A program made the translations under genes and the position numbers. DNA of 64,000 bases, taken from positions 186,001 to 250,000 of the forward strand of contig PAAX01000002.1 of the NCBI GenBank assembly GCA_002698995.1. The letters run 5' to 3'. The DNA is from Ignavibacteriota bacterium. GTDB lineage: Bacteria > Bacteroidota > Ignavibacteria > Ignavibacteriales > Melioribacteraceae. A model generated the notes under the pieces. The model made no database searches, was not told the DNA's origin, and saw only the letters and a program-made list of their open reading frames with translations. Positions 50,557 through 61,793 of this stretch are shown piece after piece. Every line of letters starts with the position of its first letter. Positions within the stretch are counted from its first letter, which is position 1.

Positions 50557-51453
50557 CTAAAATGTAAATGTTAATCCAATTCTAAAGTTTTCATATGTAA
50601 TAGGATTTACACCACCGAATGGCCAATTCATGTTATCTTTACGTAATGAAAAAAATGCGTAAGAAACTCCACCTTTAAGTAGAGCATTTAAAATTGGGAC
50701 TGCTTCAGGAGTTGAATCCATAACTTCATCAACAAAATAATCAATAAATCCGATTCCAATTGCTTCGGTAATTAAACTTCCTGTGTTTTTCCAAAATAAA
50801 TGTCTTGGATAAATAACACTCATATCATAAGAACCGTTAAGTGAAATTCTTTCGGCAATTTCAAGTTTTACACCGACTGAGTTTGCTGTTCCAAATCTGA
50901 AACTATCTTTATAAAGGTCGATTGGTTTAGTATCAATTGTACGATTGAAATTTCCCAAATAAAAAAGTGAGTAGTCGCTAATGTTCTTGTAATCGAGTTT
51001 AGTCCAGTTTACATTAAAATCGGCAAAGGGAGTTATAGAAAAATTGCCGATCTTATAACCATATCCTTTAAGAAATCCAAAACCAAACTGCCAATGCTCT
51101 ACATTTAATTCGGAATTCTTAAGATCCTTAGTTCTCAATTCGGGCGAAGAAAATTGAACAAATGAATAATTATCTCTCACTTTAATAATGTAATCTTCAT
51201 AATAATCATCAACCGATCTGTAACCCAAACGTAATTTAAGCAAAGAGGTTTTTGCAAACTTTTCGTTATAGTCTTTAAGCTTTAATTCACCTAAGCCGTA
51301 GTTCAATTCCAGATAAGGACTTTTTCCAAAACTATAATCAAACTGGAAATTTACCCAGTCATCATCCCAATCATCCCAATCCGGTTTTGGATTTTGTGCG
51401 GTTAAATTTGAAATGAATAATACCAACAGCAGTAAACTTACACGCTTTAACAT
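50557..51453 (-). CDS. Outer-membrane beta-barrel-like protein
   Basis: The protein has 298 residues. A signal peptide ends near LTAQ. The body alternates amphipathic strands with aromatic girdles (PYLELNYGLGELKLKDY, LRLGYRSVDDYYEDYIIKV, GYKIGNFSITPFADFNVNW), and the last strand ends in phenylalanine (FRIGLTFTF), a usual outer-membrane insertion signal. The Asp/Trp-rich segment DWDDWDDDWVNFQFD near residue 25 is unusual. No transport or enzyme motif is visible. Confidence 0.7.
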   Translation of the reverse strand: MLKRVSLLLLVLFISNLTAQNPKPDWDDWDDDWVNFQFDYSFGKSPYLELNYGLGELKLKDYNEKFAKTSLLKLRLGYRSVDDYYEDYIIKVRDNYSFVQFSSPELRTKDLKNSELNVEHWQFGFGFLKGYGYKIGNFSITPFADFNVNWTKLDYKNISDYSLFYLGNFNRTIDTKPIDLYKDSFRFGTANSVGVKLEIAERISLNGSYDMSVIYPRHLFWKNTGSLITEAIGIGFIDYFVDEVMDSTPEAVPILNALLKGGVSYAFFSLRKDNMNWPFGGVNPITYENFRIGLTFTF

Positions 51454-54601: not shown

Positions 54602-57028
54602 GTGAATAAGAAAAGTAACAATATAATTTATTTTCTTTTAAGTGCAATTGTCTCAATAATTTTATTGACGTTCACTGATATTGATAAATCAATTAATAAC
54701 AATGCAGAAGCTTCGATAAAATCATTTTATGCTAATGATAAAGCTGATACAAACATTGTATTAATTACTATTGATGAAACAGATATTCAACAACTCGGAG
54801 GCTGGCCGCTAAAACGAAGCTACTATGCTTTACTTTTCAATAAGCTGAATAATCTTGATGTTCGTGCTGTTGGATTAGAAGTATTCCTTTCCAATTTAGT
54901 ATCTTCTCAATCAATATATAGTGAGCTTCTGTTAGATCAAGCAAAAAATTACAACAATATTGTGTTCGGCTCAATAATTTCCAGCATAAAAAAAGATGGT
55001 GATAAATATATATCTGATTCAATTCAACTCCCATTTGTAGCTAAATTAAGCAGCATTAAAAGCGGACATTTAAGCTATATCAGTAAAAGTTCGGGAATTA
55101 TTCTACCTCTCAAAATCGAAAATAATCTTATCGAAAAAGCTTTTGCATTGAGTCTTGCTGAGATTTCGGACCAAATTAAAATTGATAGACCGCATATAAA
55201 CATTAACTTTGATAAATCATGGAAAGAATACAAATCATTATCTCTCCTTGAGTTTTTTCAAATTTACGAGAATGATGAAGAACAGCTTGCTTATTTAAAA
55301 AACAAAATTGTTCTAATTGGTATAACTGCTCAATCATTAGCAAAAAATCTTAATACAATTTACGATGATGAACTTCCCGGAATTGGATTTCATGCAATTG
55401 CATTGGATAATATTCTAAATAATAATTTTTATGATGATTCCTACTATTCAATATCAGCTTTGTTTTTATTTTTACTTGCTTTTATACCGGTATTCTTCAA
55501 AAGAACAAGCTTTATAATATACTTATCAATACTGGCGTTTACAGTAATTATTGCATTTACCGCAATCACTCTTTTCAATGTACTTCTAAATTATGCTTCA
55601 TTTGTTCTTCCTTTTTTATTTAATCTTTTAACCGCGCTGTTAGTATTTGTAAACAGTAGAAAAGAAGAAACTGAATCGGTAATAAAAGAGAAAGATTTAA
55701 TTCTCAAGGAACTTACCGACAAAACAAATCAATTGGATACGCTTCAGAATGAGTTGGAGCTTGAGTCCAAAAATTCTTCACATGAATTGTTGGACAAAGT
55801 AACACAGCTTAAGCAAGAAGTTTTAGAACTGCGTAACCGTCATAGAGATAGTGAAGAAGTAAAGTTTGAAGAGCAAAACAAAGCAGAAAATTTCCATGGA
55901 ATAATTTTCAAAAGTAAAGAGATGCGTCAAATTGTTTCTACAATTAAAAAAGTTGCTGATGAAAAAGCTACCATATTAATTATGGGTGAAAGCGGAAGCG
56001 GAAAGGAATTAGTTGCGCGTGCTATTCATAATTTAAGTTCCAGAAAAAATAAAAATTTTGTTGCTGTAAATTGTGCAGCATTATCAGATACTCTTTTGGA
56101 AAGTGAATTATTCGGACATGTTAAAGGCTCATTTACAAATGCAATTTCTGATAAGAAGGGACTTTTTGAAGAAGCAAATAATGGTACAATTTTACTTGAT
56201 GAAATCGGTGAAACATCAGAAACTTTTCAAACAAAATTACTTAGAGTATTACAAAACGGTGAAATACAAAAAGTCGGTTCAGCTGCTGCAGTAAAGGTTG
56301 ATGTAAGAATTATTGCCGCGACAAATAAAAATCTGAAGGCGTTGGTTGATGCAAAAATATTCCGTGAAGATTTATATTACAGGTTAAATGTAATTCAAAT
56401 AAAGATTCCCCCTTTAAGAGAAAGAAAGGAAGATATTCCGGCAATTATTGAGTTCTTCTTAGAAAAAGAGGATGGTAATTTCAGAGTATCGAAAGCGGTT
56501 ATGGACATATTACTTTCTAATGAATGGAAAGGAAATGTTAGAGAACTGGAATCAATTATAAAACGAGCTGTTATTTATGCAAAGTCTGAAGAAAGAGAAG
56601 TAATTCAGCTTAAAGATTTACCGGACGAATTATCTAAACTTAGTAAATCTAATTTGGATGACGTTATAATTGAAGCTTTAGCAGCAAAAAATTTCAGTCA
56701 TTCTTCAATCAATGAAACTGCATCGGATTTAAATTTAAGCAGAACTCTTGTTTCTGAAAATCTACGCGGTTATTTATTTAAAAACTTAGTTAAAACAAAC
56801 TTTGATATTGATTTAGCAGTTGTAACAATTACTAAGGATAAAGATTCCGCTGATAAATTAAAATCAAAATTACAGACCTACCTTACAAACATTAAAAAGG
56901 ATTTAGAAAAATTAGAATCTAAGGATTTCGATTTTATCAAAGCTCAATTCACATCAAAGTATAAAAATCTACCTCAGAAATATCATTCTCATTTAGATGA
57001 AATAATAAAATATCTTTTGAATAGCTGA
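54602..57028 (+). CDS. Membrane CHASE2-sigma54 transcriptional activator
   Basis: The protein has 808 residues from GTG 54602; no ATG fits the N-terminal helix. Order: membrane helix (~7-24), extracytoplasmic CHASE2 domain (~30-270, VLITIDETDIQQLGGWPLKRSYYALL … KNKIVLIGITAQS), three helices (~280-350), coiled coil (~355-415), AAA+ sigma54-interaction domain (Walker A GESGSGKE 462-469; Walker B TILLDEIGE; DVRIIAATNKNLK), then a helix-turn-helix (NETASDLNLSRTLVSENLRG) and a C-terminal helical tail of ~80 residues. The RpoN-contact loop reads GSFTNA (509-514) instead of GAFTGA. It should sense an envelope signal and activate the genes downstream. Confidence 0.92.
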   Translation: MNKKSNNIIYFLLSAIVSIILLTFTDIDKSINNNAEASIKSFYANDKADTNIVLITIDETDIQQLGGWPLKRSYYALLFNKLNNLDVRAVGLEVFLSNLVSSQSIYSELLLDQAKNYNNIVFGSIISSIKKDGDKYISDSIQLPFVAKLSSIKSGHLSYISKSSGIILPLKIENNLIEKAFALSLAEISDQIKIDRPHININFDKSWKEYKSLSLLEFFQIYENDEEQLAYLKNKIVLIGITAQSLAKNLNTIYDDELPGIGFHAIALDNILNNNFYDDSYYSISALFLFLLAFIPVFFKRTSFIIYLSILAFTVIIAFTAITLFNVLLNYASFVLPFLFNLLTALLVFVNSRKEETESVIKEKDLILKELTDKTNQLDTLQNELELESKNSSHELLDKVTQLKQEVLELRNRHRDSEEVKFEEQNKAENFHGIIFKSKEMRQIVSTIKKVADEKATILIMGESGSGKELVARAIHNLSSRKNKNFVAVNCAALSDTLLESELFGHVKGSFTNAISDKKGLFEEANNGTILLDEIGETSETFQTKLLRVLQNGEIQKVGSAAAVKVDVRIIAATNKNLKALVDAKIFREDLYYRLNVIQIKIPPLRERKEDIPAIIEFFLEKEDGNFRVSKAVMDILLSNEWKGNVRELESIIKRAVIYAKSEEREVIQLKDLPDELSKLSKSNLDDVIIEALAAKNFSHSSINETASDLNLSRTLVSENLRGYLFKNLVKTNFDIDLAVVTITKDKDSADKLKSKLQTYLTNIKKDLEKLESKDFDFIKAQFTSKYKNLPQKYHSHLDEIIKYLLNS

Positions 57029-57038
57029 CAAATTTCAT

Positions 57039-57070
57039 TCAGGCATTTTTGCTTGAAAATCAGGCATTTT
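57039..57070 (+). promoter_or_regulatory. Triple half-site, likely upstream activator site
   Basis: TCAGGCATTTT occurs at 57039-57049 and again at 57060-57070, exactly 21 bp apart (two helical turns). Between them is TGCTTGA on the opposite strand sense (57050-57056), so three half-sites alternate. The centre is about 100 bp upstream of the predicted start site near 57157, the usual distance for enhancer sites of RpoN activators. Confidence 0.55.
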
Positions 57071-57130
57071 AAAACATTAATTCTATTCATAACTCCTTTA
57101 TTTATAATAATTTACCTATTCTTTTCTCTT

Positions 57131-57146
57131 TGGCACAAATCATGTT
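57131..57146 (+). promoter_or_regulatory. Sigma54-type -24/-12 promoter
   Basis: TGGCACAAATCATGTT matches TGGCACN5TTGCW at all six bases of the -24 element and at T, G and W of the -12 element; the -12 GC reads GT. GG and the -12 G have the required spacing. The predicted start is near 57157, giving a 37-nt leader with AAAGGAG before the ATG at 57194. Confidence 0.55.
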
Positions 57147-57193
57147 TTAATAGCAGTGTTAATTTGATTTCAAAATAAGTAAAGGAGATAAAA

Positions 57194-58132
57194 ATGAGAA
57201 TTACAGCATTATTAATGTTATTAAGTTTTCTATTCTTCACCGCATGCAGTCAAGAAGATGCATTAGTCACTTCGGATGATGAATTTTCAAATGATCAAGA
57301 AGCAATTGCAAAACTGATTGAGGATGACGAAGCAGTTCAATCTTTTGAGCCAAACTTTAATGAAGAAGATGTAATGAGTTTTTACGGTAAGGTTGCTGCT
57401 GAAATCTTCCCCGTTAGAGTCGGACAAAAAATGATTTTAACCGATAGAAATTATGATGTAAATATAATCGGCGATTCAGCGTTTGTTTCTGTAACACACA
57501 CATTCGACGGGAAATTATTTATAGCAGCTTCTTATGATGAATTTACTCCGGGGGATTCTAATGTTGTAGATACTTTACTTCAAAAAGATTTTATTACCCA
57601 GGTTAAAAGAAATATAATTATGGTTAAAATTGGAAACCATGAAAGACCAATATTGAATTGGAAAGTGAAATCGGTATCATTGCCTGAAGGAGGAACTTTA
57701 TCTGAAAATATAGAAATCAAAAAAATGACTCTTACTTTTAATGATGGTGAGGTTATTGAAATTATAGAGCCAACAGAATATTACTTCTCTAGAATTCCGG
57801 GCTTCAATAATCAAATTCCTGTGTTTGGAAGAAATGAAGATGTTATTGTAAATATTGAACTTCAGAGCGCTTATGCCGATACCGATTTTGTCTCTTTAAC
57901 TTGGGGAGCTTTAAGAGGAATGCCTCATCATAGAGTAAAAAGAAAATTTGATTTGGTCTCATCCGAATTTGACGGAACTTATTATCAAAAAATTTATCAG
58001 CAAACTTTAAAGACTCATTTTATTCCAGGATTTAGACATGCTGTAATAAATGCAATGCCAAAGCAAGTTGTTTTTGATGATGCTTCGGAAGTTGAATTAA
58101 ATTCATGGGGAATGCCTTATGCTGTTCGCTAG
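57194..58132 (+). CDS. Lipoprotein of unknown function, first gene after the sigma54 promoter
   Basis: The protein has 312 residues. A lipoprotein signal ends in FTAC (Cys17), then an acidic linker (EDALVTSDDEFSNDQE) and a mainly beta body (YDVNIIGDSAFVSVTHTFDG, SVSLPEGGTLSENIEIKKMTLTF, FVSLTWGALRGMPHHRVKRKFDLV). I do not recognise the family. AAAGGAGATAAAA precedes the ATG, the same leader as the gene at 604. A strong hairpin after the stop suggests much of the transcription ends here, making this the main product of the sigma54 promoter. Confidence 0.75.
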   Translation: MRITALLMLLSFLFFTACSQEDALVTSDDEFSNDQEAIAKLIEDDEAVQSFEPNFNEEDVMSFYGKVAAEIFPVRVGQKMILTDRNYDVNIIGDSAFVSVTHTFDGKLFIAASYDEFTPGDSNVVDTLLQKDFITQVKRNIIMVKIGNHERPILNWKVKSVSLPEGGTLSENIEIKKMTLTFNDGEVIEIIEPTEYYFSRIPGFNNQIPVFGRNEDVIVNIELQSAYADTDFVSLTWGALRGMPHHRVKRKFDLVSSEFDGTYYQKIYQQTLKTHFIPGFRHAVINAMPKQVVFDDASEVELNSWGMPYAVR

Positions 58133-58160
58133 CAGCATTTGCAGAAACCTCACTCAAACG

Positions 58161-58186
58161 GTAAGGAATTCTTATGAATTCCTTAC
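58161..58186 (+). terminator. Perfect hairpin between the two lipoprotein genes
   Basis: GTAAGGAATTC/GAATTCCTTAC forms an 11-bp stem with a TTAT loop, followed by TTATATTTTAAATT. The T-tract is interrupted, so it may terminate only partly and set the ratio of the first gene to the rest. Confidence 0.65.
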
Positions 58187-58222
58187 TTATATTTTAAATT
58201 GATTTTTTATTATGTTGATAAC

Positions 58223-59125
58223 ATGAAAAGAATAACAACTAAAATATCTGTAATAATTTTGATTGCAGTTTTATCCGCTTGCAATAAACCAAATCCAATT
58301 GAATTGGAAAGGGACAATACAGATGATGCTTATTCATTAGAAATTATTGCTACTGATCCTAGTCAGTTTGATTATCAAAATGGTTATGACAGTACTGGTG
58401 TTGCAAGTCCGCTTCCAAGAGCTTCATCCGAGTTTATAATTACTTTGAATAAAAATTCCGGAGGAATGAATCAATCGCACGGAAATAGATTTGGAATTGC
58501 TACAGCAGTATTTTATGATAAATCTAAACCAATTTATAATCAAAATAATAGATTAGTTGGATACTTAACCAAGGATTTGGGAGAAGTAAAGTTTAACAAT
58601 TTTCCAGCTTTCAAGCGTCAATTTCATGTTAGATTAAGACAAGGCAATTCATTTGTTGATTCCTTAGCAGGAATCAGATACCATCTTCCACTTAGACCAA
58701 TGATGAATCTGGGAGAAAACATTAATATTTCCCTTACATCAAATAATAATATTTTATTCCAATCAACTATAAATATTCCCGAAGAAATAACCGGACAAGT
58801 TGAAAAAATTGTTGACCAATCCAATAATCTTAGAGGAATAAATTTAACTTGGAACGGAAATAATTCCGGTAAGATTGAAATCATTATCGGTGGATTTATT
58901 CCACAGAATATAAGTCCTCTTCCTTTATTAAGAATAAAAGTTAATGATGACGGAAAGTTTATACTTCCCAAAAATATTATTGATCAAGTTCCGTATCAGA
59001 ATTTTGAAAGCCTAGTCTTTTCTTTTATAAGAAGAATTGAAAAATCAGAACAATCAAACAGTTTGAGTGATAATTATATTGCAGCGCAAAGTATTCACAA
59101 TATTAAATTTTCTATTAATAACTAA
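58223..59125 (+). CDS. Lipoprotein of unknown function
   Basis: The protein has 300 residues from ATG 58223 (MKRITTK…, lipobox LSAC, Cys20). An upstream TTG at 58199 is in frame, but its extra residues spoil the signal peptide. The body is beta-rich and asparagine-rich (HGNRFGIATAVFYDKSKPIYN, EKIVDQSNNLRGINLTWNGNNSG). I do not recognise a domain; the segment at ~50-150 with GYLTKDLGEVKF looks like a beta sandwich. It overlaps the next gene by up to 59 nt, implying translational coupling. Confidence 0.7.
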   Translation: MKRITTKISVIILIAVLSACNKPNPIELERDNTDDAYSLEIIATDPSQFDYQNGYDSTGVASPLPRASSEFIITLNKNSGGMNQSHGNRFGIATAVFYDKSKPIYNQNNRLVGYLTKDLGEVKFNNFPAFKRQFHVRLRQGNSFVDSLAGIRYHLPLRPMMNLGENINISLTSNNNILFQSTINIPEEITGQVEKIVDQSNNLRGINLTWNGNNSGKIEIIIGGFIPQNISPLPLLRIKVNDDGKFILPKNIIDQVPYQNFESLVFSFIRRIEKSEQSNSLSDNYIAAQSIHNIKFSINN

Positions 59126-61106
59126 ATCGAAAATTATATTCATTTTATTTATGATATTGTTCAGCAATACATACGGACAAGCATCAATGGATTTATTTTC
59201 TTTTAACGGAAATTTGACTGATTACAAACACCGTTTAAATAGTTTTGAATCCAACTCCGCCAACCATATTTATAAAGGTGATTGGCAGCTTAGCGCTTCG
59301 TTCAATTCAATTTTAGGCGATAATCCTTCAAATAGCTTACTCTCTTTATCTTTGGGAAAAGCAATTGAAAATCATTATTTCTATGTAAGATATTCACCCG
59401 GATTAACAGCGCAATTTAGGTTTTTAAATGCATCCACAATAACAACAGAAAATGATGTTGAAGTTGAAAGTGAACTTCTTACTGATCTTACTTATTCTGA
59501 AAATTTTGGTTTTGGATATTCTTATAAATTCACAGATAATTTTTCTATCGGCGGATCACTTAGATATTTTACTCAAAAATTTGATGAACAAATTCCACTT
59601 ATAATATTAACCAGTGATTCTGTTAATTACATCAGCACTAAATCTGTAGTTACGGAAATAAATGTTTGGCAAGGTGATTTGGGATTGAATTACAATCTTA
59701 ATGATGATTTATCATTCAGTCTAAGCTCACATAATTTATTCTCTTTTAAGGAACAAGATACATCTTCAAGTTACGGAATGAATTTTAATAAAGGATTTAT
59801 CGCCGGAGCCGCATACAGATTATCAAGCAACTTTTCTGCAAATATTAATTATGAAATGAACGGTGCATTCAATTTATCAGGTTCTCATAATTTTAATTTT
59901 CTTAACGGTAAGATTGGTTATGAAATTGCTTTAATGCACGATAAATACCAAGCTCCATTTATTTCGGCTGTTCTTCCATCTATTAATTATACTAATGAAA
60001 TACTAAGTCTTACATTAAAATACGTTAAGTATACAAGCGATAGGAACAAAGCATTTTCTTTAAGTGATTTTAACAATGAAGGGATTAATAATATTATCAA
60101 TAATAAATATAGTCCGGATAAACTTATACTCAATCTAAATATTGCATTATCATTTGTACCCGATAAAAATGTTCGTTTCGTAGAAATAGAATATGTTGAA
60201 AATATTTATCCGACTTTAATTGATGAATATATTGACAAGCCATTTGCAAAAGCAAAGGTAATTAATCTTACAAACAAGGCGGTAAATGTAAAACCTTCCA
60301 GCTTTATCGAAAATCTCAATTCCGATATTATTCATTCTCCTTCAATTAATATTTTAGGAAATGATACTGCGGAAGTTTATTTCTATACGGTAATTGAAGA
60401 TACAGACGAATTAATAAATAAAAGTATATTAAGCAGTGTTAACTTTTATCTAACTACATCCGGCAGTAATTATGATGATGAAATCGAAAAGCCCATTTTA
60501 CTATACGATAAAAACAGTTGGAACGGTGATGTTTCATCATTAAAATATTTTGTTTATGCCGATCTTAATAAATCAGAAAAGTATGCAAAGGAAGTTCTTT
60601 ACGACAACAAAACAATACTAGATGAAACAGATGAAAATGAGAAAATATTTTCAACCGTAAAACTATTATTTAACAATTTTGTTAAGCAGCTTCAATATGT
60701 CTCCGATCCAAGATCAAATATTGAAAGAGTGCAGCTTCCAATGGAAACCCTTAATATTAAAGGGGGAGACTGTGATGATCTTTCAGTAAGCTTTGCTTCA
60801 ATTTTAGAAAGTATTGGAATTCAAACAGCATTTATTGACTACAAAGAAGAACCTGTAAACCATGTTAATCTTTTGGTAAATACTAAAATTCATCCTTCTG
60901 AAAGGAAAAGAATTACGAATAACGATAAAAGAGTTTTTATAAGAAAAAATAATTTAGGTAACGAAGAAATTTGGATTCCGGTTGAAACTACTGTCTTAAC
61001 AAATTTTGAAGAAGCTTGGGAATCCGGTTCGGAAAAATTTTATAAATCTGCTGTTACTGATTTTGGTTTAGCAAAAGGATCAGTAAAAATAATTGATATT
61101 CTTTAG
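59067..61106 (+). CDS. Outer-membrane barrel fused to transglutaminase-like domain
   Basis: The protein is up to 679 residues from GTG 59067. The start is uncertain because it lies inside the previous gene; a TTG at 59079 is also possible, and the ATG at 59151 would cut into the signal peptide (…IIFILFMILFSNTYGQA). Residues ~45-370 are amphipathic strands like a PorV/FadL-type barrel (NHYFYVRYSPGLTAQFRF, FGFGYSYKFTDNFSIGGSLRYF). Residues ~375-510 form a beta-sandwich. The C-terminal transglutaminase-like domain has Cys569 (GGDCDDLS), His599 (VNHVNLL) and Glu640 (WIPVETT) in triad positions. This is an unusual fusion that would place a cysteine peptidase or acyltransferase at the outer membrane. 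Confidence 0.75.
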   Translation: MIIILQRKVFTILNFLLITKSKIIFILFMILFSNTYGQASMDLFSFNGNLTDYKHRLNSFESNSANHIYKGDWQLSASFNSILGDNPSNSLLSLSLGKAIENHYFYVRYSPGLTAQFRFLNASTITTENDVEVESELLTDLTYSENFGFGYSYKFTDNFSIGGSLRYFTQKFDEQIPLIILTSDSVNYISTKSVVTEINVWQGDLGLNYNLNDDLSFSLSSHNLFSFKEQDTSSSYGMNFNKGFIAGAAYRLSSNFSANINYEMNGAFNLSGSHNFNFLNGKIGYEIALMHDKYQAPFISAVLPSINYTNEILSLTLKYVKYTSDRNKAFSLSDFNNEGINNIINNKYSPDKLILNLNIALSFVPDKNVRFVEIEYVENIYPTLIDEYIDKPFAKAKVINLTNKAVNVKPSSFIENLNSDIIHSPSINILGNDTAEVYFYTVIEDTDELINKSILSSVNFYLTTSGSNYDDEIEKPILLYDKNSWNGDVSSLKYFVYADLNKSEKYAKEVLYDNKTILDETDENEKIFSTVKLLFNNFVKQLQYVSDPRSNIERVQLPMETLNIKGGDCDDLSVSFASILESIGIQTAFIDYKEEPVNHVNLLVNTKIHPSERKRITNNDKRVFIRKNNLGNEEIWIPVETTVLTNFEEAWESGSEKFYKSAVTDFGLAKGSVKIIDIL

Positions 61107-61115
61107 GAGCATAAA

Positions 61116-61793
61116 ATGAAAGGTTTTATAACAATTTTTATTTTATTGGGAATTAATCTGATTTCCCAAGAATTTATTGTTGAAAAGGTAAGCGGTGATG
61201 TTAAATATTTAAGAGGAAGCAAAAGCAGCTGGGAAAAAGTTATTCCCGGTTCTAAGCTTTTAGCAGATGATTTTATTGAAACAGATGAAAAATCATTTAT
61301 ACAACTGAACAAAGATGGCAAGAAATTTATGTTAAGTTCTTCATCGGCACTTGGATTGAATTATATAAAAGAAATTTCCTTAAATGATCTTTTACTTGCT
61401 TTAGCAATGGAAGAAATAAGAAATGTTCCGCAAAAGAAAAATGAAACGAATATCAGCAATACTGCAGTTTATGGTTCAAAAATAAAAAACAAAGAAGATG
61501 TATATACCAATGATTTTGAACATGGTTTAAAGAGATTAAATGGAGCAAAGCAGTTAAACGAATTTGGTTATAGTAAATCGGCTGTAATTGCAGCAAAAGA
61601 GACTTACAGAAATTATCCTTCTACTAAAAAACTAATTGATGAAAGATTATATTTTGCAGATATATTAATTCAGTTAAAGCTTTTTGAAGAAGCCTTAACT
61701 GAACTAAATAATATCAAAGAAAACTCAATAGATGAAAAAGATATTAATCTTGTACAAGAAAGAATAAATAAAGTAAAGCTGGAAATGCTTTAG
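61116..61793 (+). CDS. FecR-domain secreted protein
   Basis: The protein has 225 residues. A signal peptide (MKGFITIFILLGINLISQ) is followed by a FecR domain (~20-85: VEKVSGDVKYLRGSKSSWEKVIPGSKLLADDFIET, FIQLNKDGKKFMLSSSS). The C-terminal half is helical and TPR-like (SAVIAAKETYRNYPSTKKLIDERLYFADILIQLKLFEEALTEL). Free FecR-domain proteins without a membrane helix occur next to CHASE2 proteins in many bacteria; here one closes the CHASE2 activator cluster. TTAGGAG precedes the ATG, 9 nt after the barrel gene's stop. Confidence 0.82.
   Translation: MKGFITIFILLGINLISQEFIVEKVSGDVKYLRGSKSSWEKVIPGSKLLADDFIETDEKSFIQLNKDGKKFMLSSSSALGLNYIKEISLNDLLLALAMEEIRNVPQKKNETNISNTAVYGSKIKNKEDVYTNDFEHGLKRLNGAKQLNEFGYSKSAVIAAKETYRNYPSTKKLIDERLYFADILIQLKLFEEALTELNNIKENSIDEKDINLVQERINKVKLEML

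Follow-up and report, generated by a model that had tools for sequence, protein, structure and literature searches.

A conserved candidate enhancer and sigma54 promoter adjoining a CHASE2 activator gene and a lipoprotein operon in an Ignavibacteriota bacterium

Positions 57024-57146 of the window (the whole stretch of 64,000 nucleotides that was analysed) very probably form a sigma54 promoter with its upstream activating sequence, controlling the lipoprotein operon at 57194-61793 and served by the CHASE2 enhancer-binding protein encoded alongside. Binding and transcription are predicted here from comparative sequence analysis. The relevant elements are as follows.

57024-57028, minus strand: putative inverted upstream half-site, GCTGA; its position is conserved in relatives and it overlaps the activator stop codon
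57039-57045, plus strand: putative direct-repeat half-site 1, TCAGGCA; CA[GTC]GC is essentially invariant across 45 loci
57050-57056, plus strand: TGCTTGA, the middle half-site of an earlier sequence-only reading; its alignment columns (11-17) carry no information in relatives
57060-57066, plus strand: putative direct-repeat half-site 2, TCAGGCA, 21 bp from half-site 1; near-invariant across 45 loci
57131-57146, plus strand: predicted sigma54 -24/-12 promoter, TGGCAC-AAATCA-TG-TT; the conserved bases are GG (-25/-24) and G-13
57157, plus strand: predicted transcription start, placed from the -24 spacing

Both copies of TCAGGCA, TGCTTGA, TGGCAC (57131-57136) and ATGTT (57142-57146) lie where the sequence-only reading had placed them, and the 21 bp separation of the outer copies is confirmed by position. 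That reading proposed three half-sites. The outer two are conserved in relatives, but the middle TGCTTGA is not; it was rejected as a half-site on these grounds and is probably incidental. Judged from the alignment, the third half-site is instead an inverted TGC[CA]TG[GA], which precedes repeat 1 at a conserved position and of which GCTGA in the window is a degenerate version. In several genomes (CATGCA-type loci) the inverted half-site switches to the CATG form along with the direct repeats.

Conservation was assessed in 65 regions upstream of lipoprotein homologs, with one genome supplying two. The repeat pair [TC]CA[GT]GCA occurs at 21 bp spacing (22 in a few) in 50 of these, where shuffled sequence matched the repeat-pair score in at most 2% of trials. 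One of the 50 (G083) is a short match near the gene that we do not count as convincing, and it was omitted from column statistics. Across the approximately 49 aligned loci, information is near maximal in both direct repeats and in TGGCA[CT] and drops almost to zero in the columns separating them. Thus, in orthologous loci, the comparison that the sequence-only reading had put forward as a check, the outer repeats and the -24 element stand far above neighbouring positions. The composite CAKGCA-N15-CAKGCA-N50-80-TGGCAC was found in 26 of 116 relatives versus 1 of 116 for the reversed control, and the three-half-site pattern in 28 of 116 versus 2 of 116. The relaxed -24/-12 string TGGCAYRN4WTG is uninformative within the organism's own genome (25 places versus 17 for the reversed control, not significant). 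The site therefore owes its significance to the composite pattern and to conservation, and not to the -24/-12 string alone.

Within the genome (4.23 Mb in 36 contigs), the window has the only exact copy of the repeat pair. A further nine places match with one mismatch, only one of which is intergenic, and there too TGGCAT lies downstream. A search of some 85,000 species genomes for the exact three-half-site pattern gave 52 matches. Sixteen of these are non-coding with TGGCA[CT] at a gap of 50-67, and they come from Melioribacteraceae/Ignavibacteriales bins (nine), bins labelled only Bacteroidetes (five) and 'Bacterium BMS3Abin04' (two). A match in Pantoea has CGGCAC within a long open frame and was taken as chance.

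Because TGCTTGA is able to pair with either TCAGGCA, and because the region sits after a stop codon, the repeats could be viewed as an RNA hairpin (a terminator or attenuator) that ends the activator transcript, rather than as a protein site. The predicted fold is weak (z-score -1.55), a terminator search found none, and relatives do not keep TGCTTGA, with which the repeats would pair. The motif also precedes operons that have no upstream activator gene, in fixed relation to TGGCAY. We rejected the hairpin as exceedingly improbable.

A dyad of the form TAACTYATTG-N6-CAATAAGTTA lies between the enhancer and the -24 element (window approximately 57085-57115) and is partly conserved in homologs of the 61-67 gap class (e.g., L084 and L013). 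Its self-complementarity is significant in just 2 of 49 loci, though striking in some. Perhaps it is the site of a second regulator or of a bending protein.

Returning to the enhancer and promoter, GG at -25/-24 and A at -22 are present in all 49 aligned loci. In families f1 and f2, G-13 occurs at fixed spacing in 28 of 28 loci and T-14 is frequent. The sequence-only reading regarded the T at -12 as the weak point of the promoter. This concern is not borne out, as what f1 and f2 conserve is G-13; position -12 varies freely (A in 10, T in 9, C in 7 and G in 2), C-12 is not conserved, and the T of the window is thus ordinary for its family. G-13 is lost in family f3, where T-15/T-14 are retained. 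Several promoters of FnIII genes also lack G-13, and since some of these are in f1 the G-13 rule is not strict. The gap from repeat 2 to TGGCA falls into discrete length classes (42, 50-54 and 61-67, with none between), and the usual enhancer and promoter distances assumed at the outset are conserved. A requirement that activator and polymerase meet on one side of the helix would account for discrete classes of this kind.

The genome has a single rpoN (E 3e-59), a gene whose absence would have told against the sequence-only reading, and its product carries the RpoN box in canonical form, ARRTVAKYREQL. It might still be argued that TGGCAY belongs to another type of promoter, given that the GC at -12 is missing, that C-12 lacks conservation and that G-13 is absent from f3 promoters. 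We consider this very improbable in view of the RpoN box, the exact -25/-24 GG, CA and G/A-20, and the fixed-spaced G-13 throughout f1 and f2. In addition, TGGCAY is always paired with the sigma54-activator site, and none of the 11 activator-less loci keeps it.

The gene immediately upstream was described in the sequence-only reading as a sigma54 activator with a helix-turn-helix, and its domain content and predicted structure agree.

54602-57028, plus strand: activator gene, with Pfam CHASE2, Sigma54_activat and AAA_lid domains (Pfam, hydropathy and an AlphaFold2 model of the C-terminus)

Hydropathy places an N-terminal transmembrane helix at approximately residues 4-29 and further transmembrane helices at approximately 280-353. 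The CHASE2 domain (residues 47-277; PF05226, E 2.5e-27) lies between these predicted helices, and the sigma54-interacting AAA+ domain is confidently recognized (PF00158, E 2.4e-69). An alignment of orthologs and the AlphaFold2 model indicate a helix-turn-helix at approximately residues 696-732, followed by a conserved helical C-terminal tail. The modelled C-terminus is confidently helical (mean pLDDT 89.8), and its solved structural relatives cover mainly the lid. A Pfam search of the activator gave no helix-turn-helix match, including to HTH_8. Recognition-helix residues R714, E719, R722 and G723 are invariant among orthologs. Some association between the half-site base (G or T) and recognition-helix residues 713 and 718 was seen, confounded by ancestry. 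A P0002 scan of genome_contigs found no relative. The tail itself, SKYKNLPxKxHxYLDExI (window 56850-57025), is highly conserved and unusual for an enhancer-binding protein.

In the L1 loop (near residues 509-514) the window activator has GSFTNA in place of GAFTGA. GAFTNA or GSFTNA is found in most f1 and f2 orthologs (with D in G052 and G in G046), and the canonical GAFTGA in f3. In NorR, the GAFTNA variant works with sigma54 and is no longer repressed by the sensor domain (PMC2941729). Since N at this position works in NorR, GSFTNA is compatible with sigma54 activation, and the analogy hints that CHASE2 may not control the ring as the GAF domain of NorR does. The loop variant roughly parallels whether the target promoter has or has lost G-13, a pattern that is clade-confounded.

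We defined activator orthologs by E<1e-100 and found them in 57 of 116 genomes. The site and the activator are both present in 50 loci and both absent from 11; 4 loci have the activator and no recognisable site, and none has the site alone (Fisher p 1.5e-9, a test that ignores shared ancestry). TGGCAY is absent within 200 bp in all 11 activator-less loci. Contrasts occur within genera: in g2 (G001 versus G035 and G049), g31 (G030 versus G045) and g37 (G069 and G104 versus G102). In f1 and f2 the activator gene is immediately upstream of the lipoprotein operon. The two are convergent in G069 and G104 and lie about 1 Mb apart in G082, and the site is kept in all three. Retention of the site with the activator about 1 Mb away argues against conservation from mere adjacency. 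We infer from co-occurrence and adjacency that the site belongs to the CHASE2 activator, other sigma54 activators being present in the genomes.

The many loose sigma54-activator candidates in these genomes leave room for the idea that the half-sites and promoter are real but are bound by another enhancer-binding protein, with the CHASE2 activator a mere neighbour. This is unlikely, as there is no locus with the site and without the activator, both are lost within genera, the two are adjacent in f1 and f2, and the recognition helix matches the half-site in its degree of conservation. The strict co-occurrence, together with persistence of the site where the activator is unlinked, supports the link from CHASE2 activator to site to target that was originally proposed.

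The predicted targets in this genome are an operon beside the activator and probably a second gene elsewhere.

57194-58132, plus strand: target gene 1, a lipoprotein without a Pfam family; homologs in 66 of 116 relatives
58223-59125, plus strand: second lipoprotein of the operon (synteny in families f1-f3)
59112-61106, plus strand: outer-membrane-barrel-like protein with a weak transglutaminase-core match (domain search and synteny)
61116-61793, plus strand: FecR-like/LapA-retention-like exported protein, last of the block (synteny; NF033682 E 3.6e-5, below its cut-off)
G000:C12, half-sites 51039-51066: L209, second probable target, with TCAGGCG-N14-TCAGGCA and TGGCATTATAATTG at a gap of only 42, before a gene for a T9SS-sorted secreted protein

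The four operon genes (57194-61793), encoding the two lipoproteins, the barrel with its transglutaminase-like core and the FecR-like protein, form a block conserved across three families. L209 is the sole intergenic one-mismatch pair, with TGGCAT before a T9SS gene, so two or more targets are probable in this genome. In relatives, the same composite also precedes genes for FnIII/carboxypeptidase-regulatory-like secreted proteins, a WXXGXW repeat protein, a small membrane protein (approximately 100 residues) and T9SS-sorted proteins. We assigned FnIII and WXXGXW by inspecting the sequences, and T9SS, for the target in this genome, from an NCBIfam match. Half-site triplets also occur upstream of exported proteins at L199 and L201, with no clear -24 element; these are candidates for degenerate or non-sigma54 targets.

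Taken together, the predictions suggest a membrane-tethered activator that would sense the state of the envelope via its extracytoplasmic CHASE2 domain. The helix-turn-helix may bind the inverted pair TGCMTGR / YCAKGCA and, two helical turns away, the second direct repeat; the conservation of these half-sites is observed, and their binding is predicted. By analogy with the family, the AAA+ ring would assemble at the half-sites, loop over one of the few discrete gap lengths and remodel RNA polymerase-sigma54 at TGGCA[CT]RN5TG. The same activator may also control further exported proteins as a small regulon.

In the literature that we searched, no paper joins CHASE2 to sigma54 activators or reports a binding site for an activator of this type, and to our knowledge Nla28 of Myxococcus, considered below, is not a CHASE2 protein. 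One-component enhancer-binding proteins of the NtrC/NorR/DmpR class share with the system predicted here an AAA+ activator, a sigma54 promoter, ATP-driven remodelling and a remote binding site at approximately -90 to -120 (PMC7057263). Unlike these, the window activator has a membrane-embedded CHASE2 sensor, GSFTNA, a helical tail and no HTH_8. The closest parallels in site architecture show that three-half-site and tandem-half-site enhancers are already known (PMC4641369, PMC9765219). DVU2956 of Desulfovibrio vulgaris is likewise a one-component activator by a sigma54 target with three half-sites predicted by comparative genomics (PMC4641369). It differs in lacking an N-terminal sensor, in its motif and lineage, and in having been confirmed by gel shift. 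Nla28 resembles the present case in its tandem half-sites and small sigma54 regulon, and differs in its 8-bp CT[C/G]CG[C/G]AG half-sites and variable spacing (PMC9765219). An association of CHASE2 with FecR is known with histidine kinases: in the Burkholderia CHASE2 histidine kinase / LysM-FecR operon a CHASE2 sensor is found beside an exported FecR-domain protein, as here, but it acts through a histidine kinase and a response regulator, not through a direct sigma54 activator (PMC5192318). For the wider Bacteroidota, the available part of the Flavobacterium psychrophilum account covers sigma54 promoters of exported and envelope proteins, including T9SS-linked ones, and describes neither an activator site nor a CHASE2 activator (PMC9723704). 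A recent cross-phylum survey of sigma54 does not name this lineage (PMC12316311).

A larger claim would be that of an undescribed sigma54 regulon, apparently confined to Ignavibacteriales, with a CHASE2 activator, a one-inverted-plus-two-direct operator and promoters without C-12, in which the L1 loop and the -13 base appear to have diverged together. We regard this as doubtful in its entirety and offer it tentatively. If true, the divergence of the loop and the -13 base would be a natural case of co-adaptation between activator loop and promoter. The envelope-protein targets predicted here fit a proposal that the main role of sigma54 is to control the exterior of bacteria (PMC3162934). The CHASE2 domain is widespread as a sensor, and the signals it receives have been described as unknown (PMC5192318). 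The site, the promoter and the list of targets (the lipoprotein/FecR-like operon, FnIII proteins and T9SS-sorted proteins) may be used to learn the signal to which this CHASE2 sensor responds.
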